Shown piece by piece: positions 29,336 to 46,520 of a DNA stretch of 64,000 bases. The translations under genes were made by a program, and so were the position numbers. The stretch is taken from positions 1 through 64,000 of the forward strand of contig NZ_CAMFLC010000003.1 in assembly GCF_945957465.1 (NCBI RefSeq), read 5' to 3'. The stretch is from an uncultured Leifsonia sp. (lineage in GTDB: Bacteria; Actinomycetota; Actinomycetes; Actinomycetales; Microbacteriaceae). The number at the start of each line of letters is the position of its first letter. The first letter of the stretch is position 1. The notes under the pieces are model-generated. The model was not told the DNA's origin. It saw only the letters and a program-made list of their open reading frames with translations, and did no database searches.

Positions 29336-29860
29336 TCACGCCCGTTCGACCAGGAGCGCGAGGTCGCCGAGCAGCAGCCGGCCGCCGCTGCCGATCCTGC
29401 CCGTGGTGCCGGGCGGCACGCGGGTCGCCGCGCCGCCCGCCGACACGACGGTCACGCCGTTGGTGGAGTGCAGGTCGGTGATCTCCAGCTCATCGCCAGC
29501 CGGGCGCACGGCGGCGTGGGTCTTCGAGACGGTCGACGTCGGGTCGTCGAGCACGACGAGCTCTGCTGGCCCGGGGTGGACGGCGGCCGACGGGTTACGG
29601 CCGAGCAGCACGGTCGCCGTCACGGGGATGCGCGTACCGCCCGGCGCGGTGAGCCTCCACACCGGCGCGGGCTGCGGCGGCACGGCGCCGGGAACCGCGG
29701 GGGGCAGGAACGAGGGCAGCGGCGACGGTGCCCCGCCGCCGATCGGGCGGCCGACGTCGCGCGCGTCGCCGCCGTCGTCCGGCCGGCGCGCCGGTATCAG
29801 CCCCGGCGGCGGCACGATGAAGCCCGGCCTGTCGTCGCCGGCGCCGTCCGATGTCCCCAC
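29336..29860 (-). CDS. FHA-domain protein
   Basis: Cytoplasmic phosphothreonine-binding protein, 174 residues. The first 75 residues are Pro/Gly/Asp-rich and probably disordered; the FHA domain follows with LGRNPSAAVHPGP, VSKTHAAV and DLHSTNGV, holding the conserved Gly-Arg, Ser/His and Asn-Gly positions. The start is GTG, 31 bases past the preceding stop. It ends the cluster that contains a Ser/Thr kinase and PP2C phosphatase, so a phosphorylated partner within the cluster is likely but not shown. Confidence 0.85.
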   Translation of the reverse strand: MGTSDGAGDDRPGFIVPPPGLIPARRPDDGGDARDVGRPIGGGAPSPLPSFLPPAVPGAVPPQPAPVWRLTAPGGTRIPVTATVLLGRNPSAAVHPGPAELVVLDDPTSTVSKTHAAVRPAGDELEITDLHSTNGVTVVSAGGAATRVPPGTTGRIGSGGRLLLGDLALLVERA

Positions 29861-29891
29861 ACGCCCACTCTACGGACTGCGGCCCGAGGCG

Positions 29892-32213
29892 CTAGCGGGA
29901 GGCGCGCCCGCGATACCGGAAGGCAGCGAGCCGCGCGCGGAGCCGCCCTGCCGCGGTGGTCGCGCCGTCGACGGCCTCGTCCGCCGCGGTCCAGGCCGCT
30001 CTCGCCCGCTCCTCCGACACCTCCGAGCCGTCGAAGACGGCGGCGTCGACCTGCCGCGCGATCGTGGCGAGCCCCGCCGCCGGCACGGTCAGCCCCTGGC
30101 TCGCCGACTGCTCCTCCAGCGCGGCGGCGGTCTGCAGCCGGGTCGAGCGGGGCGGCACCGACAGTCCGAGCTCGACGTACCGGTCGGACAGCTCCTCCCA
30201 TGCGCCGGCGGCACGGCGATCGGGCGGGCCCGTCGTCTCGCGCACGCGCCGCCGGCGTCGCTTGAGGGCTCCGATGATCAGCAGGGGCACGAAATAGAGC
30301 AGGAGCGGAACACCCACGATGCCGAGCGCGACCCAGGCCCAGGCCGGCAGCTGGAAAGCGCCGCGTGGCGGCTTCTTGTCGTTGTCCTTCGTCTTGACCG
30401 GCGTGAGCAGCTCGTCGGCGCGGGGATCGGCGGGCGGCGGCTGCCGCACCTGCGGCTGCGGCTCCAGCTTGGGTTTCGTCGTCTGGTTCTTGGGCGCATC
30501 GGTCTTGGTGGGCGTCGGGAAGAACGGCACCCAGCCGACGCCCTCGAACGGCACCTCCACCCACGCGGTCACGTCGTCGCCGGTGACCGTCGTCGTCGAG
30601 GAGACGGCCTTCGGGGCGAAGCCCATCACCACCCGGGCCGGGTAGCCGAGGCGACGGGCCATCAGGGCGAAGGCGCTCGCGTACTGCTCCTGGTCGCCGA
30701 CCATCGGCGACCTGCTGAGCAGGTCGGTCATCCGGTCTGCGCCCTCCCCTGCCCGGGACGGGACGGGATCCGACGCCCGGCCGTGGCTGAGGTAGCCGAG
30801 CGATTTGAGCGAGCGCTCGATGTTCCGCAGCTTCTGGATGGCCGTGTTCGCCGAGCCGGCATACTCCTCGGCCTTGGCGGAGACGACGTCCGGCACGTTG
30901 TCCACGGGCGGCAGGACGACGTGCGCGGGCGCCGCCTTGGCGAGCTGCTGGTCGTTCGGGATGCGCTGCGCTGTCGCCTCCACCGTGTACTTCAGGCCGT
31001 CGCGGACTCCGCTGGTGACGGCGCTCGTTCCGGTGGCCGTGTTGACGCGCACCGTCTGCGTCGGGTCCTGGCCCGTGTGGGCGTCGAAGCCGAGCCGGTC
31101 GAGATAGCCGAGCGTCGGGAGCCAGACGTCGGAATAGCCCAGGATGTCGATGGTCGCGGTGCTGGTCGCGCCCGGGGTGAAGAGGGACGGCCGCGGGATG
31201 GAGCTGCCGAGCAGCTCGAACGCCCCCGAGGCGCCCGCTTGCGAACCGGGTTCCGTCACCCGCCAGACGACGCCGTCGTAGCTGTCCATCGTGGCGAGCC
31301 GGATGACCTGGCCCTTCTGCAACTCCTCGACCGTGAAGAGCTTGGTCTTCTGCAGATCCTTCGTGTACTTGCGGAACCCCGCGAGCGGGCTCGGGTAGTC
31401 GAGCGGGTCGAAGGGCGGCGTGACCTCGTCGCGGACCACCAGGCGTGACGCGGCGGCCGGGGTGAGCAGCGAGCCCGCAACAGCGCCCACCACGAGCGCT
31501 CCGACGACGACCACGACGCCGCTGAGGAACCGGGTCCGCCGCACGCCGGCGCCGGCGTTCAGCCGCCCCTGGTCCCCGGTGCGACGCCAGGCGAGCCAGA
31601 CGAGCGCGATGACCGCGAACAGCACGCCGCGGGCGCCGGCGAAGTAGGCATCGCGGGTGCCGAGGAGGATGCCCGCGAGCACGAGCAGCAGCGGTCCGAT
31701 CAACAGCACGGCCGCCCGCCCCACCGGCCGGCCGGCCGACGGCGCACCCGGGCGCCGGCTCGTCCGCGGCAGCCAGCGCACGGCGAGGGTGACCGAGACC
31801 AGGCTCACGAGCCAGCCCGCGAAGTAGGGCACGACCGCCACGTACGGCGGGGCCTCCAGCGGAGCGCGAAGGGTCACCGCGTCGCTCCAGCCGAAGACCG
31901 GGCCGATCGCCAACCCGGAGAGGCTGTCGAGTGAGGGCAGCACGCCGTAGAGAGCGAGTCCCGGCAGTGCGAGCGCCGTGCCCAGGAGCACGTACGCCGC
32001 CAGAGCGATCAACGCGGTGAGCATCACCGACAGCCAAAACAGCCTCCCGATCACCGCGACGGCTCCCCCGATGACGATGCCGCCGACGGCGGCCGACACG
32101 AAGGCGTAGTGACCGAACGCCGGCTCGAAACCGGCGACGGCGATGAGACTGAGCCCGATGACGACGGCGGCGTCGATCCAGGTGACGCGCTCGAGACGAT
32201 CCACGGCGCTCAC
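29892..32213 (-). CDS. Transglutaminase-like membrane protein lacking the catalytic triad
   Basis: Paralogue of the 12058-14319 protein, 773 residues, with about seven hydrophobic segments in the first 280 residues, an extracytoplasmic transglutaminase-fold domain and a C-terminal helix plus cytoplasmic tail. The catalytic Cys region is GDQEQYASAFALMARRLG, with Gln where Cys belongs. The His position in VTGDDVTAWVEV is Thr, and the acidic position in GWVPFFPT is Phe. The fold seems intact but it should not be enzymatically active. GTG start, GTGA overlap with DUF58. It may be a binding or scaffold domain. Confidence 0.85.
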   Translation of the reverse strand: MSAVDRLERVTWIDAAVVIGLSLIAVAGFEPAFGHYAFVSAAVGGIVIGGAVAVIGRLFWLSVMLTALIALAAYVLLGTALALPGLALYGVLPSLDSLSGLAIGPVFGWSDAVTLRAPLEAPPYVAVVPYFAGWLVSLVSVTLAVRWLPRTSRRPGAPSAGRPVGRAAVLLIGPLLLVLAGILLGTRDAYFAGARGVLFAVIALVWLAWRRTGDQGRLNAGAGVRRTRFLSGVVVVVGALVVGAVAGSLLTPAAASRLVVRDEVTPPFDPLDYPSPLAGFRKYTKDLQKTKLFTVEELQKGQVIRLATMDSYDGVVWRVTEPGSQAGASGAFELLGSSIPRPSLFTPGATSTATIDILGYSDVWLPTLGYLDRLGFDAHTGQDPTQTVRVNTATGTSAVTSGVRDGLKYTVEATAQRIPNDQQLAKAAPAHVVLPPVDNVPDVVSAKAEEYAGSANTAIQKLRNIERSLKSLGYLSHGRASDPVPSRAGEGADRMTDLLSRSPMVGDQEQYASAFALMARRLGYPARVVMGFAPKAVSSTTTVTGDDVTAWVEVPFEGVGWVPFFPTPTKTDAPKNQTTKPKLEPQPQVRQPPPADPRADELLTPVKTKDNDKKPPRGAFQLPAWAWVALGIVGVPLLLYFVPLLIIGALKRRRRRVRETTGPPDRRAAGAWEELSDRYVELGLSVPPRSTRLQTAAALEEQSASQGLTVPAAGLATIARQVDAAVFDGSEVSEERARAAWTAADEAVDGATTAAGRLRARLAAFRYRGRASR

Positions 32214-33553
32214 CGGCCCACCCTCCTGAGGAGGGCGGGCAGCTCGTCGAGCCGCCCGAGCGCGATCAGGAGGGTACGGCCCAGTCGGGCCACCCGCGGC
32301 TCGGCGGTCTCGTCCACCCGGATGGTGATGGTCTCGGTGTCGGCGGACCACAGCGCAGCCGCCGACCGCAGCTCGGCCGGCGTCGCCTGCGAGCCGACGA
32401 CCGTGACCGCGAGGCTCGGTACAGCGCTTCGAAGGGTCGCCTGGCGCAGGAACTCCCGCACGCCGACGGCCGACACGACCGGCTGGATGCGGCAGGAGTC
32501 GTCGAGGAAGGCCGTGGGAGTCGACACGCGCAGGGCGGCACCCTGCGAGACCGCATCGATGCCCGTCTCCTCCCGGATGACGTGGGAGCCGAGGGACGCG
32601 AACACCGACACGGCGAGCTCGAACTCGTCGTCGGAGGCGAAGCGCGACCGCTCGGCGTCCAGCGCCAGCAGCAGCTGCGAGCGACGCGACTCCTGGTACT
32701 GCCGCACCATCAGCTGCCCGGTGCGGGCGGAGGTGCGCCAGTGGACATTGCGGATGTCGTCGCCCGCTTCATACGTGCGCAGCGCGTGGAACGCCAGGTC
32801 GGAGTCGGTGATGACCTTGGTGGTCTGACCCTCCAGGTCGCGCACCAGCCCGCGCGCGGTCGCTGCCAGGCGCACCGTCCTGGGGTGCACGAAGAGTTCC
32901 ACCTGGTCGGTCCAGCGCGTGGTGCGCCGGAGCAGCCCGAGCTGGTCGCCGCGGACGGACAGGGCCGGTCCGGCCAGGATGAGGGCGCGCCGGGCGGTCG
33001 GCACGGCGAACAGTTCGTCGATCTCGGCGCCGGGGGCCAGGCGCGGCACCGTGAAAGCGGCCAGCCCTTCCCCGACCGGCAGCTCCATGCGGGTGGGCAG
33101 GACCGGGCGCTGCCCGCTGTTGCGCACGCTCAGCCTCCCGTACGCACGGTCGCCGGCGACGACTCGACGCGGGGTGAGCTCGACGCCGACGGCGTAGGTC
33201 GAGCGGCCGACGACGAAGCCGACGGCCAGGAGCACGGCGGCGAGCAGCGTCGAGCCGAGGTACGCGAACTCCGCCCAGCCGAGCGCGAAGAGGAGGACGA
33301 ACGACACCGCCGCAGACGCGAGCACGACCCAGCCGAGCGGGCTCACCGTGTCGGTGACGGATGCGACCCGGCCCGCCACGCTCCGTGCGGCCGGTGCGGC
33401 ACGCCCGAGCAGCCGGCCTCCCGCCGCGGCGAGCTGGGATCCCGCGATGCGGGCCTGGACCGCGCCGCGCCGCGGGGCCGTTCTGCGCGGAGCGGCGCTC
33501 CGCCGTCCCCGGACGCCGGCCCCGCTTCGCGTCCCCGTCTCCTGAGCGGTCAT
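32210..33553 (-). CDS. DUF58 domain-containing protein (trio 2)
   Basis: Second DUF58 protein, 447 residues, coupled on both sides: ATGA with MoxR upstream and GTGA with the transglutaminase-like gene downstream. The first 65 residues are Arg/Ala-rich; two hydrophobic segments lie at about residues 70-112. The DUF58 core reads RTYEAGDDIRNVHWRTSART followed by GQLMVRQYQESRR. It probably cooperates with the adjacent MoxR ATPase at the membrane. Confidence 0.85.
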   Translation of the reverse strand: MTAQETGTRSGAGVRGRRSAAPRRTAPRRGAVQARIAGSQLAAAGGRLLGRAAPAARSVAGRVASVTDTVSPLGWVVLASAAVSFVLLFALGWAEFAYLGSTLLAAVLLAVGFVVGRSTYAVGVELTPRRVVAGDRAYGRLSVRNSGQRPVLPTRMELPVGEGLAAFTVPRLAPGAEIDELFAVPTARRALILAGPALSVRGDQLGLLRRTTRWTDQVELFVHPRTVRLAATARGLVRDLEGQTTKVITDSDLAFHALRTYEAGDDIRNVHWRTSARTGQLMVRQYQESRRSQLLLALDAERSRFASDDEFELAVSVFASLGSHVIREETGIDAVSQGAALRVSTPTAFLDDSCRIQPVVSAVGVREFLRQATLRSAVPSLAVTVVGSQATPAELRSAAALWSADTETITIRVDETAEPRVARLGRTLLIALGRLDELPALLRRVGR

Positions 33554-34518
33554 GCTGCCCGGTAGGCGGGCGGCGTCGCCGCGGCGACCGACCGGGCCAC
33601 GATGTCCGCCGAGGTGACCCCGGCGAACTCGGACTCGGGATCGACGATGATGCGGTGCGCCAGCACCGGCTGTGCCAGGTCGCGGATGTCGTCCGGCGTC
33701 ACATAGGTGCGGCCCGCCGAGATGGCCCAGGTCTTCGCCGCACGGGCCAGCGCGAGCGCGCCGCGGATGCTGACCCCGAGGGCGGCGTCCCGGTCGTCGC
33801 GGGTCGCCGTGACGATCTCGCTGAGGTAGCCCATGACCGAGGCGTCGGCGTGCACTTCGGAGGCCAGCTGAGCGAGCGTCGTCACCGAGTCGGCCGCGAT
33901 GATCGGGCGCACGGCGGTCGCCCGCGACCGGTTCGAGGAGTCCAGGAGCAGGTCGACCGTCGTGGCATGGTCGGGGTAGCCGAGGGAGGTCTTGATCAGG
34001 AAGCGGTCGAGCTGGGCCTCCGGGAGGGAGTAGGTTCCCGACTGCTCGACCGGGTTCTGCGTGGCGATCACGAGGAACGGCGTGCCGACCGGGTGGCCGA
34101 CGCCGTCCACCGTCACCACGCCCTCCTCCATGACCTCCAGCAGCGCGGACTGCGTCTTGGGGCTCGCGCGGTTGATTTCGTCCGCGAGGACCACCGAGGC
34201 GAAGATCGGGCCCGGGTGAAACTCGAAACGGCCCGTCGACTGGTCGTAGATGGTCACGCCGGTCACGTCCGACGGCAGGAGGTCCGGGGTGAACTGCACG
34301 CGCGACTGGGTGCCTTCGATCGTGTTCGCCAGCGCCTTGGCGAGCACCGTCTTGCCGGTGCCCGGCACATCCTCGAGCAGCACGTGGCCCCCCGAGAGCA
34401 TCGCGGCCACGACGAGCCGGATCGTCTCCTCCTTGCCGAGGATCGCTTTGTCGACGTTCGCGACGAGCTGCGCGAACGCGCCGGCGAACCAGTCCGCCTG
34501 TTCCTGGGTCACTGCCAC
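33550..34518 (-). CDS. MoxR-family AAA+ ATPase (trio 2)
   Basis: AAA+ ATPase of 322 residues from GTG 34518, which has AGAAGGA about 8 bases upstream. Walker A is in EDVPGTGKTVLAKAL and Walker B in VVLADEINRASPKTQSAL, followed by ATQNPVEQSGTYSLPEAQ. An alternative GTG at 34575 would add 19 residues encoded by a tandem repeat. The C-terminal part has SIRGALALARAAKTWA. It links the giant Ig-repeat gene upstream to DUF58 and the transglutaminase-like gene downstream. Confidence 0.9.
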   Translation of the reverse strand: MAVTQEQADWFAGAFAQLVANVDKAILGKEETIRLVVAAMLSGGHVLLEDVPGTGKTVLAKALANTIEGTQSRVQFTPDLLPSDVTGVTIYDQSTGRFEFHPGPIFASVVLADEINRASPKTQSALLEVMEEGVVTVDGVGHPVGTPFLVIATQNPVEQSGTYSLPEAQLDRFLIKTSLGYPDHATTVDLLLDSSNRSRATAVRPIIAADSVTTLAQLASEVHADASVMGYLSEIVTATRDDRDAALGVSIRGALALARAAKTWAISAGRTYVTPDDIRDLAQPVLAHRIIVDPESEFAGVTSADIVARSVAAATPPAYRAA

Positions 34519-34530
34519 GGATTCGTCCTT

Positions 34531-34593
34531 CTGTTCGGGTTCTCGCTCTGACTGTTCGGGTTCTCGCTCTGACACGTCGGGTTCTCGCCCGGA
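34531..34593. repeat. Three 21-base tandem repeats before MoxR
   Basis: Two exact 21-base units (34531-34551 and 34552-34572) are followed by a diverged third (34573-34593). They fill the gap between the giant repeat gene and the MoxR start and, if translated, would encode SEREPEQ-type heptapeptides. Confidence 0.8.
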
Positions 34594-34621
34594 GCTCCCC
34601 CGGCCGCCCGGCCGTCGCGGA

Positions 34622-37600
34622 TCACGGCGACCAGTCCTGGACGCTGCTCTGCACTCCGTTGACCACGACGTAGGCGCCCTTGTAGCCGCAGTACGGCTGC
34701 TGCCCGTCGGCGGCACCGCGGTAGTGCGCGTAGCCGTTGCCGTCGGTGGAGATGCTCGGGGCCCAGAGTGTGCCGCCGTTGCAGTGCACCTGCATGGGGA
34801 ACGTGCGGTTCGCCGGGAAGTGGTGGAGCGTCACATCGTACGTGAAGCTGTGCGGGTAGCCCGGCTCCTTGTTGCCCTGCGCGAGATCGATCGACGGCTG
34901 CGGCGCGGGCTTGTTCTCGACCTGGGTCGAGCCGGAGGTGGAGTGCGGGCCCGCCTTGCCGCTGCCGTCGTTCACCGCGTAGATCTCGAACGAATAGCTG
35001 CCGGCCCCCCGGCCGCCGACCGACGCGCTGGTGCCGGTCGTGGTCTTCCAGGAGTCGCCGCTCAACTTGTAGTGGTAGACGACCGCGCCGCCGCCGGTGC
35101 CGCTGGGGTCGCGCAGGGCGTTCCAGCTCATGGTGATCGTGGCCGGGGCGTAGCCGTCGTTCGAGATCTTCAGGCCGCCGACGGCGGTGGGCGTGCCGTA
35201 GGGGGTGACCGCTGCGCTCTGCGCCGAGACCGGCCCCCACCCGTCGGCGTTGTGGGCTCGCACGGCGAACCGGTACGCCTTGCCGTTGGTGAGTCCGCCG
35301 ATGTCCACCCGGCCGATGCTGCCGGTCGTCACGGTGCTCTCGCCGCCGCTGATCTCGTAGGAGTCGATCGGCTTGCCGTTGTCGGCGGGGGCGGCGATGG
35401 TCACGCTCGCCTTGCCGTCGCCGGCGGTCGGGTTCGACGGGGCCGGCGGCTTGCCCGGGACGTCGTGGATCGTCACGCGGTACTGACCGATCGCGGCGGC
35501 GGTGCGTTTCGGGTCCTTGGTCGCGTCCTCGACGTGATAGACGACGTTGACCGCGCCGATCGCGGCCCCGGAAGCCGCGCTCACCGTGATCGAGGACGCC
35601 GTATGGGTGACCGTCACACCGGCGGGAGCGCTCTGCGCCTGGGCGTCCGTGATCGTCAGCGGCGTTCCCGGGAACGGGTTGACCCAGGCCGAGTCCGACG
35701 CCGCACCGTTCAGCGTGCCCGACGTGCCGCGCTGGAGCTCCGACGTCTGCGGGGGGTTCTTCTGCGCGGCGATCGGGCGCGACGAGCTCACCACCTGAAC
35801 GTTCACGGTGCCGGTGATCGTGTGCGTGCCCGAGCTCATCGTCACCGAGACGGTCGTGGACTCCCCCGGCTGGACCCCGAGCGGCGCGGAGAGCGTCAGC
35901 GTCGACCCGCTGAGCCCCACGGAGATCTTCTTGTTCGACCACTGCGGGTTCGCGTAGCTCAGCTTGGCGAGGATCGCCGGGTTCGGGTGGAAGCTCGACG
36001 CCCGCAGGTCGACGGACAACGGAGCCTCGCCCGGTTCGATCTTCTCGGTCGGCGACGTGAAGGTCGGCGGGATGTCCGACTGCTCCGGGTCGCCGATCGT
36101 GAGCGGCAGCACGAGCGTGGTGATCCTGTCCGTCGACGCACCGGCCTCCCTGCCGTCGTTCACCTTGAACGTGATCGCCGCGGGGCCGCGATATCCCTTC
36201 GCCGCGGTGAAGTCGAGCGTGTCCTCGCCGCCGTACGATGACGCGCCGGAGCTGTTCGTCGCGCTGACGCCCGAGGCGCCGGTCAGTTTCACGCTTCGGC
36301 CGGAGGGCACCGTCAGGATGTCCGCCAGCTTCCAGCTCTTCGATCCGTTCATGGGAACGATCTGCTGCGGGAGGCCGTCCGCGATCCTGGGCGGTGCGGT
36401 CGCGTCGCCCTTGGGGGGCACGATGATGAAGGCGTCGCCGGTGAGTCCCGTGACCCGGTCCGTCACCGAGTACGCGATCGCCATGCGGCGCTCACCCGGC
36501 CGCACCGACACCGTGCCGTCGCTCGCGACATCGGCCGACGCGGCGTTCGCGCCGGTCACCGCCACCTGCAGGTCGCCCACCAGCCCGGACGGGTTCGTCG
36601 CGCCGGAGAGCGCATCGACCTTGACGGTCTGCTTGTCCGCGACCGCGTCCGCCTCCAGCACGTGGTCCACCGCCGTCGGCGGGACGTCCTTCGCGTCCGG
36701 GGTGACGGTGAGCTGGATGAAGGCGCTGGCGACTCCGCCCTGGCCGTTGGTGATCTGGTAGCGCACGACGTAGGAGCCCTGGCGCTGCGGGGCCTTCACG
36801 AGCACGACCTTGCCGTGCACGGAGGCGGTGAGGCCCTGATCGACCTGCAGGAGCTTCTTCTGCAGGGCGATGGCGTAGCCGTTCGGATCCGAGTCGTTGT
36901 CGAGCACGGGTACCGCAATCGTCCGCCCCGGCTTGACCTGCACGGGGTCGTCGACGGCGATGGGCGGTCGCACCTGGCTCGGGCGGGGGATGACACCGAT
37001 GGTCACGGTGCCGGTGGCGGACTTCCCGTACGTGTCCTTCACGGTGTACGTGAACGAGTCGGTCCCCGCGGAGTCCGGGTAGGCCTCGTACGTGAAGGCC
37101 GTGCTCGTCGTGTCCGTGATCCGGCCCAGCGACGGCTGGCTGCCGAGGCCGGCGAGCACGACCGAGTCGCCGTCCGGGTCGATGCCGTCGAGCGGCACCT
37201 CCACGGGAACGGCCGACCCCGCGAACGCACGCACGGTCAGCGGTTGCGGCTGCGGCGCGTGGTCGGAGCCCTTGTCGGGCGGCGTCACCACGAACGTCAC
37301 CGTCGCCTGGGCCTTCTGCCCGTACTTGTCAGTGATGCCGTAGACGACGCTGTACTGGCCCGGAGCCGAGGGCGCCTGGTAGCGCACCGTCGAGCCGCTC
37401 ACGAAGGCGGTGGCGCCTTTGCCGGCCGCCGAGGTGTCGCGCAACTGCGGGTCGAGCGAGAACGGGGCGTTGTCGGGCGAGGAGTCGTTGTCGAGCACGG
37501 ACGCGGTCACCACGTCCCCGGCCCGCACCGTCACCGTGTCGTCGACGGCCACCGGAGGCTGGTGCACCACCAGGGGCGGGACGGGCACGACCGTGATGCC

Positions 37601-39898: not shown

Positions 39899-39924
39899 GA
39901 CTCTGCTATCCCCCGGGGCAGGCT

Positions 39925-39950
39925 GCGATATCCATTAAGCGATATCCATT
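39925..39950. repeat. Direct repeat in the leader of the giant gene
   Basis: GCGATATCCATT occurs at 39925-39936 and again at 39939-39950, 14 bases apart, between the candidate -10 box and the TTG start. A regulator or RNA contact is possible. Confidence 0.7.
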
Positions 39951-39968
39951 GAGACTGAAACGCGAATC

Positions 39969-39974
39969 ACGCTA
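39969..39974 (-). promoter_or_regulatory. Candidate -10 box of the giant Ig-repeat gene
   Basis: TAGCGT on the minus strand fits TANNNT. A start around 39961 would give a leader of about 60 bases. The 18-base palindrome lies just upstream of where RNA polymerase would bind, so the giant gene and its followers may have their own regulated promoter within the cluster. Confidence 0.4.
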
Positions 39975-39998
39975 GCACGCCCCCCGAACGGGAGAGGA

Positions 39999-40016
39999 AT
40001 GGGGAGCACTCCCCAT
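39999..40016. promoter_or_regulatory. Operator-like palindrome
   Basis: ATGGGGAGCACTCCCCAT has two perfect 8-base arms around a 2-base centre. It lies between the FHA/HTH gene stop and the giant gene start, centred about 45 bases upstream of the predicted transcription start. A site for the adjacent FHA/HTH protein is an inference. Confidence 0.55.
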
Positions 40017-40037
40017 CAGAACCGGCGCGAGCCTCGC

Positions 40038-40748
40038 TCAGTCGCTCCCAGATTCCGCCGGACCAGCGGGTTCGTCAAGGAGCGGGAGGTCTTCCACCCC
40101 GACGAGCCGGGTGGTGACCGCGTACTCGACCAGACGTGCTCTGCGGTTGGTGGCGAGCTTGCCGCGCCCTCCCCGCAGGCCGGCCACGCCGAGGCGGTCG
40201 AGCTTGTCGCAGACGTTGTCGAGCTTGCGATTGAAGGTCGTCATGCTCCAGCCCAGACGCTCTGCGGCCTCCGAAGAGGTCGGGATGCTGCCGCGACCGG
40301 GAATCGACTGCCGCAGCACTCCCTCGGCGAGGGCGACGATCAGCTGCCGCTGGCTCGTGGTGAGCGTCACCGGCAGCACCGTGGTCGACCCGCCGGGGCC
40401 CTCCACCGCGATGGAGGTGTTGAAGTAGTCCGCGTCGCTCGTGATCGTGAAGTCGTACGTGGTCGCCCCCGCGCTGAACATGACGTGCAGGGTCTGGAAG
40501 ACGATCGGGAGCTTCGCCCCAGGCGCCAGCCAGGCCTGCATCGTGCCCGAGGCGTCGGTGACGGTCGCCGTCAGCAAGGTCCCGACATTGCTGAGCCACC
40601 ACATCCCGAAGTCGCTGGTGATGCTGAGGAACCGGCGATGCAGGTAGGGATTGTCGTCGATCGCGAGGTCGCCCTCGCGCCCGATGTCGAAATCGGCGCC
40701 GTCGCCGACCGGGTACTCCTCGCCGCAGAACTCGACCGTGAGTGTCAT
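40038..40748 (-). CDS. FHA-domain protein with C-terminal helix-turn-helix region
   Basis: Probable phosphothreonine-responsive DNA-binding protein, 236 residues. The N-terminal part resembles a divergent FHA fold (FDIGREGDLAI, NPYLHRRFLSITSD, then short strands). The C-terminal part has TSSEAAERLGWSMTTFNRKL, a helix-turn-helix-like stretch around residues 160-185, followed by a basic RGGRGKLATNRRARL wing. Order is FHA then HTH, opposite to mycobacterial EmbR. ATG overlaps the kinase stop as ATGA; upstream readings run over the kinase. A palindrome follows its stop. Confidence 0.75.
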   Translation of the reverse strand: MTLTVEFCGEEYPVGDGADFDIGREGDLAIDDNPYLHRRFLSITSDFGMWWLSNVGTLLTATVTDASGTMQAWLAPGAKLPIVFQTLHVMFSAGATTYDFTITSDADYFNTSIAVEGPGGSTTVLPVTLTTSQRQLIVALAEGVLRQSIPGRGSIPTSSEAAERLGWSMTTFNRKLDNVCDKLDRLGVAGLRGGRGKLATNRRARLVEYAVTTRLVGVEDLPLLDEPAGPAESGSD

Positions 40749-42421
40749 GAGGAACACGCCTTCAGCGGCTCGGACGTGCGACCCGCTCGGATGGTGGTGA
40801 CGTCGACGCAGACCGGCACGCCCGGCGTGAGGCCGGTGAGGGTGACCGTCGGCCGGCCGGTGACGGTCGGCGGATCCGTCGTGCCGTCGCGCACCCAGCT
40901 GTACCGGTCGCCGTCTCGGGGCGCCGCCGTCTTCCAGACGATCGTCGCCGCCGTGCCGGTGGCGTCGCGCTTCGCCGACACGAGAGTGGGCGCGGGGACC
41001 GTCGTCACCGCGATGGCGCCGTCGTCGCCTCCCTGGCGGGTCGACGGCGGGGTCGACGCTGCAAGCGCGTTCGACAGGATCGCCGCCCCGATTCCCAGCA
41101 CGACGACAGCGGCCGCCGCTCCTCCGATCCACGCGACGAGTCGCCGGCGAGGCGGGCTCCCGGCGTCACCGGCGTGTCCGCCTTCCGCGGTGTCGACCAC
41201 TGGTGTCGACGGCTCGACTGCGACCGGACGCAGGCGGGTGCTCTCCACCGGGGTGGCGGCCGGCGCGACCGGAGTCACGCCGCGGACCCGCGTGGGCTCC
41301 GCCGTCGACGCGGCCTCCGACGACGGCGCGTCGGTCGACACGGGAGGCACAGCCGGCGCCGGGCCGGGCGTGTCCCCCTTCGGTTCGTACGGCGCCGCGA
41401 CCGGCTGGGCGACGATCGTGGCCACCGAGCGGGCCCGGGTCGCCTCTGCGGCGTCAGCGCCGTCCTCCGCAGGCGGGTGCTCGGTCGGCAGGTGGAGGTT
41501 GGGGACGTCGATGCTGGTCGGGGCCAGTCCGAGCTCCAGCTCCACCCGCTGCAGAGCGCGCGCGAACTCGACCGCCGAGCCGTACCGGTTCTCGCGTCTC
41601 GCTGCCATCCCGGTGCGGAGCACCGTGGTCAGCGAGGTCGGCAGGTCGGGCCGGTCGAGTGGCGAGATCATGCCGCGCTCGATGCGGCCGATGAGGTCGA
41701 GTGTGCCGTTCGAGCGGCCGGGAACCTCGAAGGGCGTCCGGCCCGCGAGGAGAGTGTGCAGTGTGGCGGCGAGGGAGAAGATGTCGCTTCGCACATCGGG
41801 ATCGGGATCGTCGGTGAACATCTCGGGAGGCGACCACGGCACGCTCAGCCCCACCGAACGGCTCCCGTTCGTGGTCGTGTGCGCCTCGCCCCGCCGCAAC
41901 TCCGACAACGTCGTCGTGTGCACCGGGAGCTCCTCGAGGGCCGAGGCGATGCCGAAGTCTGTCAACGCCGGCCAGCCGAACGAGTTGGTCAGCACGTTGG
42001 CCGGCTTGATGTCGCGGTGCAGGATACCGGCGTCGTGCGCCGTGGCCACGGCGCTCGACAGCCGCACCCCGGTCCGCAGGGCGTCCTCGACCGGAATGCG
42101 CTCACGCTTCAGCCGATCGGCGAGCGACGGGCCGGAGCAGTACTCCATCACGAGGTAGGGCCGGTCGTCGGCCGATACGCCCGCGTCGAAGATCGTCGCG
42201 ATGAACGGGTGCGCCGACAGTCGCGCCATCACGTTCGCCTCGGTCACGAACCGGGCGCGCGCCGCATCGTCGACGCTGTCGGTGAGCAACACCTTGACGG
42301 CGACGCTGCGCTTGGGAAGCTCCTGCTCGTAGAGGAAGACGTCGGAGAAGCCGCCCGAGCCGAGAAGGCGGATGAAGTGGAGGCCGTCGAGCACGGGCGG
42401 TGTCGACGCCATCCTCCTCAT
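40745..42421 (-). CDS. Membrane serine/threonine protein kinase
   Basis: PknB-type kinase of 558 residues. The cytoplasmic kinase domain has the glycine loop GSGGFSDVFL, Lys43 in VAVKV, HRDIKPAN with Asp137, and DFG at 155-157. A Pro/Ala/Thr-rich juxtamembrane linker (about 300-425) with TRVR-type Thr sites precedes a single membrane helix near residues 430-455, and a short extracytoplasmic FN3-like domain ends in LKACSS. No PASTA repeats are present. It is ATGA-coupled to the FHA gene on one side and the FHA/HTH gene on the other. Confidence 0.93.
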   Translation of the reverse strand: MRRMASTPPVLDGLHFIRLLGSGGFSDVFLYEQELPKRSVAVKVLLTDSVDDAARARFVTEANVMARLSAHPFIATIFDAGVSADDRPYLVMEYCSGPSLADRLKRERIPVEDALRTGVRLSSAVATAHDAGILHRDIKPANVLTNSFGWPALTDFGIASALEELPVHTTTLSELRRGEAHTTTNGSRSVGLSVPWSPPEMFTDDPDPDVRSDIFSLAATLHTLLAGRTPFEVPGRSNGTLDLIGRIERGMISPLDRPDLPTSLTTVLRTGMAARRENRYGSAVEFARALQRVELELGLAPTSIDVPNLHLPTEHPPAEDGADAAEATRARSVATIVAQPVAAPYEPKGDTPGPAPAVPPVSTDAPSSEAASTAEPTRVRGVTPVAPAATPVESTRLRPVAVEPSTPVVDTAEGGHAGDAGSPPRRRLVAWIGGAAAAVVVLGIGAAILSNALAASTPPSTRQGGDDGAIAVTTVPAPTLVSAKRDATGTAATIVWKTAAPRDGDRYSWVRDGTTDPPTVTGRPTVTLTGLTPGVPVCVDVTTIRAGRTSEPLKACSS

Positions 42422-43695
42422 TCGGTCGCCTCGACGGTCACGGTCGCCCCGCTGCCCAGGTCGACGACGGTTCCGGCGACGACCGTGGTCGGTTCGCCCG
42501 CGCGGAGCTTCTGCGGCGACTTGCCCGGCAGCACCACGAGTGTGCCGTTGCGCGAGTGCAGGTCGGTCACGACGACGGTGTCGCCCTCCACGGAGATGGC
42601 GACGTGCGAGCGCGAGATGTCGCCCTCGGCCCCGGTCAGTGTCAGCGGGCGAGCGCCCCTGAGGGTGCGGACCGCCGCTGCGTTCGGCGCGCGCCCGACG
42701 ATCACCGGTCCGAGCAGGTCTTCGCGCCGCCCGTCGGAGAGCACGACGTGGTAGCGCGGGGGCGCCGGGGAGGCCGGCGGCTGGTCGAGGGCGTCCGGCG
42801 GCCCGGCGGCCGCCCGCCGTGGGAGGTCACCGCTCAGCACGGTCAGCCCGTCGTGGTCGCCGACTGCAACCGCCTGCGGGAAGGAGTCGGTGATGAACCC
42901 CGGCAGATCGATGCGCTCCGGCTCCGCCGGAGCCGCATCCGGCCGAACCGCGGCCTCTTCGATGCCGCGCATCATCGTCGCGCCGAAGAGATGGTCGTAG
43001 CCCGTTTCGAACCCGGGCGCCCCCGCGTTCGATTCCTCGGGACCGGCGCCCTCGCGCTCGGGCGCCTCCACGATCGTCGCCTCCGAGACCCGTGTCGCCT
43101 CGGAAACCGGCGTCGGCTCGGAGACCTGCGTCGGCTCCGAGACCAGCGTCGGCTCGGAGACCGGCATCGGCTCGGAGACCTGCGTCGGCTCCGAGACCCG
43201 GGTCGGCTCCAGCACCACCGGCTCGATCGCTCGCGACTGCTTCGCCGCCTGCGGTGCGGGTGAGGGCTGTGCGCGCACGTCGTCCGACGCCGTCCAGACC
43301 AGGGCGCCGCCGCGCACGACGCCGTGGACCACGGGAAGGGTCTCGCCGGACGGCGACCCGAGCGTGACGGACGTCGCCTCGTCGAGCCGGGTCTCCAGCC
43401 ACGACGACACCGCGGCTCTGAGGTCGCGCGTGCCCGCACGGTCGGTGACCGAGGCACGGAGCCCGCCGCGCACGGCGAGCATCGCGGTACCGTCGCTGAC
43501 GTCGAGGAGGCCGAAGGGCGGGGTACGCCCCAGACCGTCGGCGATCAGCTCATCCAGAGTCTCCGCGAAACCGGTCCGCACGGCCGTGAGGTAGCGCAGC
43601 AGCCGCTCGCGGTCGGTGCGCGCCACGACGAGCGCGCGCCCCTCCGCGACGACGACCGCCCATTCCCCTGCCGTCGTCTGCTGCACCTCGAACAC
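42418..43695 (-). CDS. FHA-domain protein with SEPT hexapeptide repeats
   Basis: Cytoplasmic protein of 425 residues from GTG 43695, which follows GGGAG. The N-terminal about 150 residues form a compact domain (VFEVQQTTAGEWAVVVAEGR onward) of unknown family. Residues about 163-207 are hexapeptide repeats of the type VSEPTQ. The C-terminal FHA domain has VIVGRAPNAAAV, DISRSHVAI and DLHSRNGTLV. The repeated Thr residues are plausible targets of the neighbouring kinase, which the FHA domains here could then read. ATGA overlap with the kinase gene. Confidence 0.85.
   Translation of the reverse strand: MFEVQQTTAGEWAVVVAEGRALVVARTDRERLLRYLTAVRTGFAETLDELIADGLGRTPPFGLLDVSDGTAMLAVRGGLRASVTDRAGTRDLRAAVSSWLETRLDEATSVTLGSPSGETLPVVHGVVRGGALVWTASDDVRAQPSPAPQAAKQSRAIEPVVLEPTRVSEPTQVSEPMPVSEPTLVSEPTQVSEPTPVSEATRVSEATIVEAPEREGAGPEESNAGAPGFETGYDHLFGATMMRGIEEAAVRPDAAPAEPERIDLPGFITDSFPQAVAVGDHDGLTVLSGDLPRRAAAGPPDALDQPPASPAPPRYHVVLSDGRREDLLGPVIVGRAPNAAAVRTLRGARPLTLTGAEGDISRSHVAISVEGDTVVVTDLHSRNGTLVVLPGKSPQKLRAGEPTTVVAGTVVDLGSGATVTVEATE
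43074..43209 (-). repeat. 18-base tandem repeats encoding VSEPT units
   Basis: About seven and a half in-frame 18-base units inside the FHA gene, each encoding VSE(P/A)T plus one variable residue (R, Q, L, P or I; one unit has Met for Thr). Units differ mainly at third positions. Confidence 0.85.
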
Positions 43696-43702
43696 GTGCT
43701 GG

Positions 43703-44512
43703 CTACTCCCTCGGCTGCGTGTCGTCGAGCTCTCGGCCGGTGAGTCTGTCGACGGTGTCGACAGCGGCCGGAGCGTCATCCCCTGGCTTCGATTCAATCA
43801 CGATCACGGTGACGTTGTCGTGGCCGCCCGCCGCGACGGCGGCCTCCACCAGCACGGCGGCCGGGTCGTCCGGGTCGCCGGCGAGGATCTCGGCGATCGT
43901 CTCGTCGCTCAGCTCCCTGGTGAGTCCGTCGGAGCAGACCACGAAGTCCGGGACGGCGTCGGCGGGCACGAACGTGCTGTCGGTGTCGACGAAATCCTCC
44001 GCTCCGAGGGCGCGCGTGATGACGTTGCGCTCCGGATGGACCTCCGCCTGCTCGGCCGTGATGAGCCCGGCGTCCAGGAGTTCCTGCACAGCGGAATGGT
44101 CGACAGTCAGACGCTCCAGCGTGCGCCCGTCCCACGCGTAGACGCGCGAGTCGCCCACGTTGATCACCATCCACTCCTCCGCCGCGCGCTCGGGCACGCG
44201 CACGCGGACCACACCGGCGAGGGTCGTTCCCGCGACAGCGGCCCCTGTCTCCTCCGCGTCGGAGAGCGCCCGCACGGCGGCGTTGGCCTCGTCGACCGCG
44301 GCGATCACCTCGTCGGGCGTCGGCGTGGTGCCGGCGGCGAGGGTGTGCGCGAGGCTCTCCACCGCGGTGCGGCTCGCGACATCGCCACGGGCATGCCCGC
44401 CCATGCCGTCCGCCACGACGAAGACCGGATCCTGCGCGAGATAGCTGTCTTCGTTGACGTGCCGTACCGCACCGATGTCGCTGCGGGCGCTCACGTCGAC
44501 GGCGGAAGTCAT
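43703..44512 (-). CDS. PP2C-family protein serine/threonine phosphatase
   Basis: Soluble PPM/PP2C phosphatase of 269 residues, metal-dependent (Mn or Mg) and the expected counter-enzyme of the nearby kinase. Metal-binding motifs are HVNEDSYL near residue 18-25, VVADGMGGHARGD at 33-45, VINVGDSRVYAW, VCSDGLTRELSD and GGHDNVTVI. Unlike PstP of mycobacteria it has no membrane helix. Its ATG overlaps the terC stop as ATGA, placing it downstream of a manganese-type riboswitch. Confidence 0.94.
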   Translation of the reverse strand: MTSAVDVSARSDIGAVRHVNEDSYLAQDPVFVVADGMGGHARGDVASRTAVESLAHTLAAGTTPTPDEVIAAVDEANAAVRALSDAEETGAAVAGTTLAGVVRVRVPERAAEEWMVINVGDSRVYAWDGRTLERLTVDHSAVQELLDAGLITAEQAEVHPERNVITRALGAEDFVDTDSTFVPADAVPDFVVCSDGLTRELSDETIAEILAGDPDDPAAVLVEAAVAAGGHDNVTVIVIESKPGDDAPAAVDTVDRLTGRELDDTQPRE

Positions 44513-45612
44513 GTGCGGGGGTCCTCCGTGGGAGTCTCGGTCGATGCGGTGGTGGTCGGTGCCTCGGCCGGAGCCGACCCGGCGGCCGGGTCGTCCTCGG
44601 CCGCATCGTCATCCCCGTGGATGGCGTCGGCGACGGTGCTGCCGCTCATGCGCAGCCTGACCAGACTAGCGACCGTGGCGACCACCATCGCACCGAGGAT
44701 CACGGCGAGGGAGGTCCAGGTGCTGATGTCCGGCGCCCATTCGATGTGCTGGCCGCCGTTGATGAACGGCAGCTCGTTCTCGTGCATCGCGTGGAACACC
44801 AGCTTCACGCCGATGAAGGCGAGGATGAACGCGATCCCGTACTTGAGGTAGACGAGCTTGTCGAGCAGGTGTCCCAGGAGGAAGTACAGCTGCCGCAGGC
44901 CCATCAGCGCGAACACGTTGGCGGTGAACACGATGAACGGGCTCTGGGTGATGCCGAAGATCGCCGGGATCGAGTCGAGCGCGAAGAGCAGGTCGGTGGT
45001 GCCGAGGGCGAGGAAGACGATGATCAGCGGTGTGAACATGCGGCGACCGTTCACCGTGGTGCGCAGCTTGTTGCCCTCGAACTGGTCGGACACCTTCAGC
45101 CGTTTGCGTGCGAAGCGGATGAACCAGCTGTCGTTCGCGCCCTCGTCGTCGTGGCTGCCGAACGCCTGGTTGAACGCGGTCCAGAGCAGGAAGGCGCCGA
45201 AGAGGTAGAAGATCCAGCTGAAGCTGGCGATGAGGCCGGCGCCGAGCAGGATGAACACGCCGCGGAAGATCAGCGCGAGGATGATGCCCACCATGAGCAC
45301 TTCCTGCTGGTACTTCCTGGGCACCGCGAAGCGGCCCATGATGATGACGAACACGAAGAGGTTGTCGATGCTCAGGCTGTATTCGGTCAGCCAGCCGGCG
45401 AGGAACTGCCCCGCATGCTCGGCGTCGCCGATCAGGAGCATGAGCAGCGCGAAGATCAGCGCCAGGGCGACGTAGAACGACACCCACAGTGCCGACTCCT
45501 TCGGCCCCGGGATGTGCGGGCGCTTGAAGACGATCAGCAGGTCGAACGCGAGGACGAGCAGGAGGACGACGAAGCTGCCGACCTCGAACCAGAGGGGAAG
45601 GGCGAGTTCCAA
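44509..45612 (-). CDS. TerC-family integral membrane protein (probable manganese exporter)
   Basis: Membrane protein of about 367 residues with eight to nine helices and the TerC signature acidic residues in YSLSIDNLFVFVIIMGRF and ALGTTDLLFALDSIPAIFG. TerC/Alx proteins export Mn2+, here supported by a yybP-ykoY riboswitch upstream. TTG at 45612 was preferred because GAAAGG lies 9 bases upstream and LELALPLWFEVGSF matches the usual start; ATG at 45639 would sit against the riboswitch. A charged C-terminal tail rich in Asp, Glu and Thr follows the last helix. Its stop overlaps the PP2C start. Confidence 0.9.
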   Translation of the reverse strand: MELALPLWFEVGSFVVLLLVLAFDLLIVFKRPHIPGPKESALWVSFYVALALIFALLMLLIGDAEHAGQFLAGWLTEYSLSIDNLFVFVIIMGRFAVPRKYQQEVLMVGIILALIFRGVFILLGAGLIASFSWIFYLFGAFLLWTAFNQAFGSHDDEGANDSWFIRFARKRLKVSDQFEGNKLRTTVNGRRMFTPLIIVFLALGTTDLLFALDSIPAIFGITQSPFIVFTANVFALMGLRQLYFLLGHLLDKLVYLKYGIAFILAFIGVKLVFHAMHENELPFINGGQHIEWAPDISTWTSLAVILGAMVVATVASLVRLRMSGSTVADAIHGDDDAAEDDPAAGSAPAEAPTTTASTETPTEDPRT

Positions 45613-45645
45613 CCGAGGGACCTTTCGGAGGGCGTACATGACGGA

Positions 45646-45770
45646 CCCGAAAGTCTCTCCCGCACTCTTCGGTGCCGCTGTGCCCGGGTCTGATCGGCTC
45701 TGCCGGTCGGACCGTGATGACGTGCACAGCGCGGAGCCGTTCGGCCCCTTCGGGATACTCCCCTTCGCAG
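45646..45770 (-). ncRNA. yybP-ykoY (Mn2+-sensing) riboswitch
   Basis: The minus-strand leader of terC carries the two conserved joining segments of this class: AAGGGGAGTATC at its 5' side (about 45767-45754) and GGGAGAGACTTTCG at its 3' side (about 45661-45648), with CGAAG and CTTTCG closing P1. ACGTCATCACGG lies in the middle arm. yybP-ykoY RNAs bind Mn2+ and typically control TerC/Alx or MntP exporters, which is the gene that follows. Boundaries are approximate. Confidence 0.85.
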
Positions 45771-45776
45771 ACCCCC

Positions 45777-45782
45777 ATCCTA
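45777..45782 (-). promoter_or_regulatory. -10 box of the riboswitch-terC transcript
   Basis: TAGGAT on the minus strand, a few bases upstream of the riboswitch 5' end. Confidence 0.55.
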
Positions 45783-45795
45783 CCGGGTCGAGGAG

Positions 45796-45801
45796 TATCG
45801 T
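45796..45801 (+). promoter_or_regulatory. -10 box of the KTSC gene
   Basis: TATCGT lies exactly 7 bases before the KTSC ATG, predicting a leaderless mRNA. It is 14 bases from the divergent terC -10 box, so the two promoters overlap face to back. Confidence 0.5.
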
Positions 45802-45808
45802 CCGCCCC

Positions 45809-46021
45809 ATGCGCCGGGTGAAGTTCGACAGCACCGCGATCGCGTCGGCCGGCTACGACCCGGCGACGGCGGTGCTGGAGATCGAATTCGCCGGCGGGGG
45901 CCTCTACCGCTACCGGCTCGTCCCGCCGAGCGTCTGGCGCGAACTGACAGCCGCCGAGTCCGCCGGGCGCTACTTCGCCGAGCGGATCCGCGACCGGTTC
46001 CCCGAGGAATGGGTTCCCTGA
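45809..46021 (+). CDS. KTSC-domain small protein
   Basis: 70-residue protein that is almost entirely a KTSC domain: FDSTAIASAGYDPATAVLEI, then FAGGGLYRYRLVPPSVW and the terminal FAERIRDRFPEEW. In many bacteria KTSC domains are linked to lysyl-tRNA synthetase or RNA metabolism, but the standalone form is uncharacterised. The ATG is preceded at 7 bases by a -10-like box rather than a close ribosome-binding site. Confidence 0.82.
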   Translation: MRRVKFDSTAIASAGYDPATAVLEIEFAGGGLYRYRLVPPSVWRELTAAESAGRYFAERIRDRFPEEWVP

Positions 46022-46031
46022 CGTGCCCGCC

Positions 46032-46520
46032 TCACTGCAGGGTCGCCGCCCACTCGGCCACGCGGCGCGCGCTCTCCTCTTCCGAAAGGTCTTCGACCCG
46101 GGTCATGATGGACCACCGCACGCCGAACGGGTCGCGGATGCTGGCGTACCTGTCGCCGGACACGAAGTCCGCGACGGGCTCGCGGATGACCGCACCCGCG
46201 GCTTCGGCCGCTGCCACGACGGCGTCGACGTCCGGAACGTAGAGTCCGAGCGAATAGCAGTCGTCGTCTCCCGAGGGCGGCGCGACGAGGTGGTAGTCGG
46301 GCATCGGTTCCCCGAGTTGCAGCAGTCCGTGTCCGAAGTCGAGCACGGCGTGGGCGACCACACCGCCCATTTCGGTGACGTCGACCACGCGCGCTCCGAA
46401 CACGTCGCGGTAGAAGGCGATCGCGCCCCGCGCGTCCGGGATCGCCAGGAACGGGGTGATGCTGCTGGCACCCCGTGGGGTGCCGTGATCGGTGTGCTCG
46501 CCGTGCGCTGCTCGTGTCAT
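46032..46520 (-). CDS. VOC-family (glyoxalase/bleomycin-resistance-like) protein
   Basis: Small vicinal-oxygen-chelate fold protein, 162 residues, cytoplasmic. It has paired beta-alpha-beta modules: ITPFLAIPDARGAIAFYRDV FGARVV in the first and LYVPDVDAVVAAAEAAG with SIRDPFGVRWSI in the second, matching PhnB-like members. The substrate is unknown. It is divergent from the AraC-type regulator at 46616, with a shared 95-base gap, and convergent with the KTSC gene, so AraC control of it is plausible. Confidence 0.85.
   Translation of the reverse strand: MTRAAHGEHTDHGTPRGASSITPFLAIPDARGAIAFYRDVFGARVVDVTEMGGVVAHAVLDFGHGLLQLGEPMPDYHLVAPPSGDDDCYSLGLYVPDVDAVVAAAEAAGAVIREPVADFVSGDRYASIRDPFGVRWSIMTRVEDLSEEESARRVAEWAATLQ

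Follow-up and report, generated by a model that had tools for sequence, protein, structure and literature searches.

Does a Ser/Thr kinase circuit set the expression of the giant surface protein encoded beside it, and does its reach extend further? This question is raised by a ten-gene cluster in a 64,000-nt stretch of contig NZ_CAMFLC010000003.1 from an uncultured Leifsonia sp. (4.06-Mb genome); we refer to the whole stretch as the window. The cluster encodes a PP2C phosphatase, a membrane kinase, three FHA-domain proteins, one of them with a putative DNA-binding half (the FHA/HTH protein), a giant surface protein and a MoxR-DUF58-pseudo-transglutaminase module. An earlier note on the window had proposed that the activity of the kinase governs the expression or assembly of the surface protein. 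As regards expression, the proposal gains indirect support from a palindrome whose occurrence is associated with that of the FHA/HTH gene. It lacked a probable second target, a WXG100/type VII-like locus that lies outside the window and could not be seen from it. We propose, with a probability of about 0.62, that kinase signalling through the FHA/HTH protein at this palindrome co-expresses the surface module and the type VII-like secretion genes.

A palindrome associated with the FHA/HTH gene

The FHA/HTH and giant genes are separated by a gap of 139 bases containing the palindrome ATGGGGA-N4-TCCCCAT, the only site in the window that matches at 12 or more of the 14 positions. No account of this palindrome was found in the open-licence full-text literature. 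The 300 bases upstream of giant genes were scored out of 14, with single-base shuffles as the null. A score of at least 12 was reached by 40 of the 80 first giants in loci with an FHA/HTH gene (0.11% in shuffles; the 80 include a few duplicates, L008/L076, L009/L092, L015/L124 and L016/L130) and by 8 of 16 second giants. The same score was found for 1 of 28 giants of family loci without an FHA/HTH gene in the fetched stretch, for none of five giants from the group f68 (see below) and for 2 of 13 others. The single positive among the 28 (L020) comes from a genome, G026, that has an FHA/HTH gene elsewhere.

In the Leifsonia genome there are three perfect copies of the palindrome, compared with 0.01 expected from composition. 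The two outside the cluster are on contig C59, both at promoters of a locus encoding a WXG100 protein and an FHA-FtsK ATPase. One has the WXG100 gene at a distance of 106 bases and, on the other side, a membrane-protein frame at 45 bases; the second is flanked by the FHA-FtsK ATPase gene and by a short WXG-like frame, with a T7SS_signal gene after the latter. Six sites have two mismatches (on C17, C5, C23, C40 and C42, and at C1:77277). Those inside a helicase gene (C17) and inside the coding region of a second cluster (C1:77277) were taken as chance occurrences.

A search of 60 family genomes yielded 33 perfect sites in 17 genomes, against one control site. Perfect sites were present in 16 of 21 genomes with an FHA/HTH gene and in 1 of 39 without (p 2e-9), and the same 16 remained positive when the four giant sites, the type from which the motif had been derived, were removed. 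Two genomes, G023 and G052, have window-type clusters that lack the FHA/HTH gene, and neither has a perfect site. Sorted by downstream gene, the 33 sites precede giant (4), PP2C (2), WXG100 (13), short WXG-like (5) and other or unclassified genes (9); thus 19 precede a giant, PP2C or WXG100 gene, or 24 if the short WXG-like genes are counted. Of the 13 WXG100 genes, Pfam identified 11, two of which scored slightly below the curated cut-off; the remaining two were assigned by BLAST to the Leifsonia WXG100 protein. The five short WXG-like genes, for which Pfam was weak or silent, were judged by eye. Some perfect sites had other neighbours. One (L231, 4959), in an FHA/HTH genome and counted among the nine, lies upstream of a gene for a FlgN-type flagellar chaperone. 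Two more (L217, 4982; L222, 5023) precede genes for small proteins with a W-E-Y/F-D-F/V-T motif and a C-terminal hydrophobic stretch, possibly a further family of the predicted regulon.

In 34 further genomes, searched with one mismatch allowed, 13 of 17 with an FHA/HTH gene have sites, 31 in all (control, 1); of the 17 genomes without the gene, 1 has a site, and only one (control, 6). Five of the latter 17 are f68 genomes in which the cluster alone was used to decide on FHA/HTH status; when they were dropped, the comparison became 13 of 17 versus 1 of 12 (p 0.0005). For these 32 sites, annotation covered 16 loci and six further stretches; in 9 of the 16 loci a WXG100, giant, PP2C or FHA/HTH gene adjoins the site. 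Genome G255 has sites before the giant gene and between a PP2C and a WXG100 gene. In G169 an FHA/HTH gene without a neighbouring surface module has a perfect site 44 bases from its start.

The sites also have features in common on their downstream side. In the 25 non-giant sites that were oriented, of which one was counted once for each direction, T follows the palindrome at +22 in 80%, A at +23 in 60% and T at +27 in 80%; among 51 giant-side sites, T and A are found at +23 and +24 in 67 and 61%. Judged from the sequences, this TAnnnT box, at a fixed spacing from the palindrome, occupies the place of a -10 box. Since it does, we infer that the centre of the palindrome would fall near -43, the position of an activator. 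Between the -10-like box and the giant start in the window (39898-39970) there is a direct repeat, ATGGATATCGC-TTA-ATGGATATCGC, which reads as two very short ORFs.

The FHA/HTH protein and the threonine motifs of the linkers

The AlphaFold model of the FHA/HTH protein (mean pLDDT 84.6, pTM 0.50) has a low-confidence linker at residues 110-124 and a helical second half. Its first half has an FHA fold, matching Rv1747 FHA-1 in Foldseek at E 5.7e-6, and a structure of EmbR is among the fold matches of the model. In a 35-row alignment Thr123 is invariant and Thr122 nearly so, and the Gly-Arg of the pocket is invariant. The standard residues (GR, S, H, NG) are kept in fhaA, fhaC and the FHA domain of the FtsK-type ATPase. 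The earlier note counted three FHA readers in the cluster; the pocket of the FHA/HTH protein does not look like one of the standard phosphothreonine type.

Sequences between the kinase domain and the membrane helix vary, except that one motif, [DE]x?T-x-[VILMA]-[RK], recurs. From 132 kinase frames (131 plus that of the window) 119 linkers were obtained (score above 250, HRD, membrane helix), of which 93 were non-redundant. The 70 from loci with an FHA/HTH gene contain 186 motifs, compared with 6.2 (standard deviation 2.4) in shuffles; 69 have at least one and 60 at least two. The 23 from loci without the gene contain 20 motifs versus 1.1 expected, with at least one in 14 and at least two in 3. 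In control PASTA-type kinases (45 linkers from 30 loci, 18 non-redundant, mean length 50 residues) there was 1 motif versus 0.7 expected. The fhaA linkers (92 of 93 anchored, 81 non-redundant) show a similar enrichment: [DE]xTx[VIL] occurs 81 times versus 22.1 (standard deviation 4.6) in shuffles, and 49 of the 81 have at least one. The repeat in the kinase linker is likely to be a phosphothreonine array for FHA readers. No account of this array was found in the open-licence full-text literature.

A predicted type VII-like target locus

The locus on C59 encodes a WXG100 protein (PF06013, E 2.1e-15), a T7SS_signal protein (E 8.7e-10) and an FtsK/SpoIIIE-type ATPase (PF01580, E 5.4e-54) with an FHA domain (E 6.4e-11). 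It thus has both a WXG100 protein and an FtsK/SpoIIIE-type ATPase, the pair by which we defined a type VII locus. Further type VII components gave no Pfam match in the other C59 frames examined; the rest of the genome was not searched for them. Variants of the type VII system that involve kinases, phosphatases and FHA proteins have been described, and phospho-control of them suggested (PMC11217815); they include a T7SSd variant in Actinomycetota, Bifidobacterium among them. The same paper also refers to Enterococcus, in which IreK is needed for the activation of type VII genes. Neither Micrococcales nor Microbacteri- is mentioned in the accessible part of PMC11217815.

A proposed phospho-regulon and the alternatives to it

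These observations can be assembled into a model. The membrane kinase, through its outside FN3-like domain, would sense an envelope signal and autophosphorylate the threonines of its linker array; FHA proteins would dock on these, and so would the type VII ATPase by way of its FHA domain; the PP2C phosphatase would reset the phosphorylation. The FHA/HTH protein, released or activated by the phospho-state, would bind the palindrome just upstream of the -10-like boxes. There it would activate the giant gene together with the MoxR-DUF58-pseudo-transglutaminase module, the WXG100/FHA-FtsK secretion genes elsewhere in the genome and, in several relatives, its own PP2C-headed operon. MoxR, DUF58 and the pseudo-transglutaminase would then assemble the giant protein.

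Several observations weigh against this model. The palindrome is not universal: 36 of the 80 first giants beside an FHA/HTH gene score below 11 of 14, five of the 21 FHA/HTH genomes (G033, G036, G045, G053 and G056) have no perfect site, and 4 of the 17 further FHA/HTH genomes have no site at one mismatch. Conversely, G028 has a perfect site without an FHA/HTH gene, 9 of the 33 perfect sites precede unrelated or unclassified genes, and 7 of the 16 annotated further loci have no recognised family gene beside the site. Because the genomes are related, the p-values overstate their independence. The DNA-binding half of the FHA/HTH protein was assigned only by the model and a below-cut-off HTH_8 match, and the Ser and His of a standard pocket appear to be replaced by His37 and Phe40; a profile alignment made for this comparison was weak (probability under 1%). 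As for the kinase motif, it was defined only after 29 linkers had been viewed, and linkers are shorter in the control kinases and in the examples viewed from loci without an FHA/HTH gene, which accounts for part of the lower motif number in both.

A different account places kinase action after expression: the kinase would phosphorylate MoxR and so control assembly of the giant protein, and the palindrome would belong to some other, co-inherited regulator. We consider this unlikely as a replacement for the regulon, and it may hold in addition to it. The reported phosphorylation of MoxR by Pkb2 in Bifidobacterium longum (PMC8430577) speaks for it, as do clusters that have no FHA/HTH gene and keep the kinase and MoxR, such as the second cluster of the Leifsonia genome (L006). 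It leaves unexplained, however, both the matched presence and absence of the palindrome and the FHA/HTH gene and the perfect site of G169, with no surface module nearby. If these were housekeeping envelope genes that had stayed together by chance with no shared regulation, an idea we find quite improbable, one would have to set aside two block orders built from the same gene set, the translational overlaps, the shared operator and a linker motif that is richest beside the FHA/HTH gene.

Hardly credible to us for this cluster is a role at the interface with host immunity, as proposed for the bifidobacterial PFNA operon, in which the giant FN3 protein would bind cytokines and the kinase report on it. 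An FN3 fragment of B. longum is reported to bind TNF-alpha (PMC8430577, PMC10688814). Of the f68 giants, 4 of 5 have a cytokine-receptor-like motif, WS-x-(W/P/E/D/A/Y/S)-S, a higher share than among the others (40 of 124); the window giant does not have it. About a third of the non-f68 giants have the motif, so that it is not confined to host-associated genera, and as a host marker it was judged not decisive. The cluster family, moreover, is widespread in the order, and most of its named carriers belong to genera of soil, plant or cold-environment bacteria.

The co-expression of surface module and secretion genes from the palindrome thus remains our preferred reading. A tentative extension of it, to which we give somewhat less than even odds, is a phospho-regulon found across Actinomycetota. 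In it the kinase array would act through the FHA/HTH protein at the palindrome on the giant gene, the MoxR module and a type VII-like system, both being parts of one envelope or contact-dependent machine, and the bifidobacterial PFNA operon would be a reduced remnant. No report joining the kinase, the FHA/HTH protein, the palindrome, the giant module and the type VII-like locus was found in open-licence full text. Three consequences deserve mention. The PFNA operon, in print unique to bifidobacteria and given a host-cytokine role, now falls within a broad, largely free-living family, so that a host-independent role should be sought for it. For WXG100/type VII genes beyond the mycobacteria, the palindrome is a concrete predicted operator and the FHA/HTH protein a candidate regulator. 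Finally, the linker arrays offer a candidate phosphothreonine docking code.

Gene content and layout of the cluster

All ten leftward genes claimed for 29336..45782 were present, as judged by Pfam and NCBIfam matches and re-called starts (Table 1); the window kinase has both HRD and DFG. The junctions are -4, 7, 5 and -4 bases for terC, PP2C, fhaA, the kinase and FHA/HTH, and 103, -4, -4 and 31 for the giant, MoxR, DUF58, transglutaminase-like and fhaC genes. These lengths depend on the starts that we chose when re-calling the genes; the 103-base gap is smaller with the alternative MoxR start. The genes were said to lie almost end to end, mostly with overlaps. The small gaps of 5, 7 and 31 bases bear out the former, and the latter does not hold, 4 of the 9 junctions being four-base overlaps. 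Because of the 139-base gap ahead of the giant gene, the cluster falls into two blocks, and the predicted operator and -10-like box in this gap suggest two transcription units.

Table 1. Coordinates of the cluster genes and of the sequence elements discussed in the text
Feature	Position	Strand	Evidence
terC, TerC/Alx-family membrane protein	44509..45639	-	NCBIfam TIGR03718 E 1.7e-108; Pfam TerC 1.5e-49
PP2C Ser/Thr phosphatase	43703..44512	-	PF13672 E 8.5e-13; Stp1-type NF033484 E 5.2e-60, under its cut-off
fhaA, FHA protein with long linker	42418..43695	-	PF00498 E 1.3e-6
SEPT repeats (acidic-P/A-T-x-V array) of the fhaA linker	43063..43209	-	sequence
Membrane Ser/Thr kinase with extracellular FN3-like tail	40745..42412	-	PF00069 E 1e-33; fn3 E 0.008, below cut-off
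Stretch of the kinase linker in which [DE]xTx[VILMA]R occurs three times (predicted phosphothreonine docking array)	41228..41446	-	sequence
FHA/HTH protein, predicted transcription activator	40038..40748	-	AlphaFold model, Foldseek, 35-row alignment
18-bp palindrome ATGGGGAGTGCTCCCCAT (minus strand), predicted FHA/HTH operator	39999..40016	.	sequence
-10-like element TGCTAGCGT ahead of the giant gene, 21 bases past the palindrome	39969..39977	-	sequence
Giant surface protein, N-terminally membrane-anchored: beta-propeller, Big_9/cadherin-like repeats, FN3, C-terminal Cys-pair region	34622..39898	-	
MoxR AAA+ ATPase	33550..34518	-	PF07726 E 1.5e-61; alternative upstream start 34575
DUF58 protein	32210..33553	-	PF01882 E 3.9e-15
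Membrane transglutaminase-like pseudoenzyme (TgpA-like)	29892..32213	-	PF01841 E 1.1e-14; catalytic Cys column never Cys in 122 sequences
fhaC, small FHA protein	29336..29860	-	PF00498 E 5.6e-7

Relation to the PFNA operon and distribution in relatives

No system of this composition had been known to the earlier note, and here it was mistaken. The PFNA operon of Bifidobacterium is pkb2-fn3-aaa-atp-duf58-tgm, with prpC, a hypothetical gene and fha added in some species; its co-transcription has been reported in B. longum GT15, and the cluster and FN3 were called unique to bifidobacteria (PMC8430577), FN3 being found only in Bifidobacterium according to PMC10688814 as well. A mycobacterial moxR operon is said to resemble it (PMC12067865). 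In the window the PFNA core order (kinase, FN3-bearing giant, MoxR, DUF58, transglutaminase-like) is found on one strand with the FHA/HTH gene inserted after the kinase. The cluster is thus an extended, regulator-bearing form of an actinobacterial system with the PFNA operon as its core.

A search for the cluster order outside this genome, which had been set as a check beforehand, showed that it is not confined to it. As had been claimed, the cluster behaves as a single conserved unit: its order was found again, in two arrangements of the blocks, in many named genera, and across 80 named FHA/HTH loci it is conserved far beyond chance. These loci are the best 80 of at least 560 stretches found to encode a relative when named genomes were searched with the FHA/HTH alignment, some of them truncated where the contig or the 10-kb flank stops. 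The giant gene follows FHA/HTH in 65 of the 80, and one further locus is a short contig. The window order was found again in Leifsonia, Agromyces, Cryobacterium and others. A swapped order, DUF58-TGM-fhaC-PP2C-fhaA-kinase-FHA/HTH with small variations (TGM, the transglutaminase-like gene), was found in 14 of the best 80, mostly in Arthrobacter, Paenarthrobacter and Brachybacterium.

Within the order, the N-terminus profile of the giant found matches in 144 of 248 sampled genomes, representing 47 of 86 genera; among genomes of the phylum it matched in 13 of 296. Misses are possible because the first look scored only 6 or 7 candidates in nearly every genome. Gene order was read in 40 stretches, namely the second cluster of the Leifsonia genome, 19 matches of the first type and 20 of the second; the matches left out include that of the first type in G057, which lies at a contig end, those in G044 and G022, which are on short contigs, and that in G009, where the frames are broken. 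The complete swapped order, giant first, is present in G067 (L185 and L186). The long form was also found in G405, G359, G141 and G255, the last of these outside the class of the window. The Leifsonia genome has a second, diverged PFNA-type cluster on C1 (L006, 1483-16479) with the order fhaA-PP2C-kinase-giant-MoxR-DUF58-TGM-fhaC; it has no FHA/HTH gene and no operator at its giant. G033 has both cluster types in tandem.

The group f68 is probably Bifidobacteriaceae: a 16S probe taken as a marker of that family was found in 7 of the 9 f68 genomes searched with it, and neither an f73 genome nor the Leifsonia genome has it. With profiles built from relatives of the window, all 6 of the 6 f68 loci showed the kinase, MoxR, DUF58 and TGM genes in that sequence. 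Between kinase and MoxR, the giant was the best match of a frame in 5 of the 6, and PP2C came afterwards in 2. In L048 MoxR is the best match of a 2194-residue frame that also holds the giant N-terminus, possibly a giant-MoxR fusion.

Tandem giant genes occur in Gryllotalpicola, Cryobacterium and Agromyces loci (L009/L092, L071, L074, L075 and L078-L080), and several second giants carry an operator-like site of their own. A record titled Sporosarcina (Bacillota; L132) contains an actinobacterial cluster, probably through contamination. In 7 of 8 stretches from distant genomes (L176-L183) a Ser/Thr kinase match was found close to the FHA/HTH gene, and neither the giant nor MoxR was matched there. 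This suggests that the kinase-FHA/HTH pair may be older than the surface module.

The giant protein and the pseudo-transglutaminase

The N-terminus of the giant protein gave a confident propeller model (mean pLDDT 85.5), for which Foldseek returned propellers, the first being an archaeal S-layer propeller-PKD protein. Its profile also matches designed Pizza propellers (E 1.2e-5), which were reportedly derived from the PknD sensor. The description of the transglutaminase-like protein as a pseudoenzyme was confirmed. None of 122 family sequences with a letter at the column, six f68 sequences included, has the catalytic Cys, and 19 of the 122 have His at the aligned catalytic column, so that the Cys and His of an active enzyme are not found together. 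A TgpA-like paralogue in the window (12061-14883, minus strand) has both columns intact and served as control. Because the Cys is absent from all 122, the reading of this protein as an enzyme in the PFNA papers is doubtful. The term DUF58 does not occur in the accessible part of PMC7159879.

The terC leader

The cluster had been described as riboswitch-headed, for which we found no support in three Rfam searches: the whole window at the gathering cut-off gave a tRNA as sole match, positions 45560-46100 at E up to 5 gave only a togavirus element on the opposite strand (E 0.44), and loci of seven relatives gave tRNAs only. No Rfam model of a yybP-ykoY or other riboswitch matched the terC leader, and the only pointer to one is TerC subfamily names such as 'R_switched_Alx'. 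The terC gene lies upstream of the cluster in 43 of the 80 named loci. An operator upstream of terC was also considered and rejected, as none of 42 terC-linked loci reaches 11 of 14; upstream of PP2C this score is reached in 17 of 46 loci without terC versus 7 of 42 with it. At a guess, terC could contribute through Sec-linked metalation (PMC10550928).

Comparison with known systems

The window cluster has the core genes and core order of the PFNA operon. It differs in carrying the palindrome (none of five f68 giants reaches 11 of 14), in the FHA/HTH gene between kinase and giant, and in having PP2C and an FHA protein in front, with terC upstream. MoxR-DUF58-TgpA operons have the same three-gene chaperone module; in the window family the transglutaminase-like member has lost its catalytic Cys throughout.

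As a regulatory pair, a membrane kinase with an FHA transcription factor recalls PknH and EmbR of Mycobacterium tuberculosis, in which a kinase is reportedly paired with an FHA-bearing transcription factor. The domain order and HTH type seem to differ, in that here FHA comes first and the helical half last, and the pocket residues of the window protein appear altered. The linker motif resembles the GarA/OdhI phospho-motif, ETTSVFR, in being an acidic-T-x-V-x-R-like threonine motif of the kind read by an FHA domain; here it is repeated within the kinase linker, and the resemblance is one of sequence alone. Finally, the C59 locus is like T7SSd and other type VII variants with an FHA-ATPase (PMC11217815) in encoding a WXG100 protein, a T7SS_signal protein and an FHA-FtsK ATPase whose FHA domain keeps the standard residues. 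In those variants, as far as that source describes them, the kinase lies within the secretion cluster, whereas here kinase and regulator are encoded in a separate PFNA-type cluster that is linked to the secretion genes by the predicted operator.

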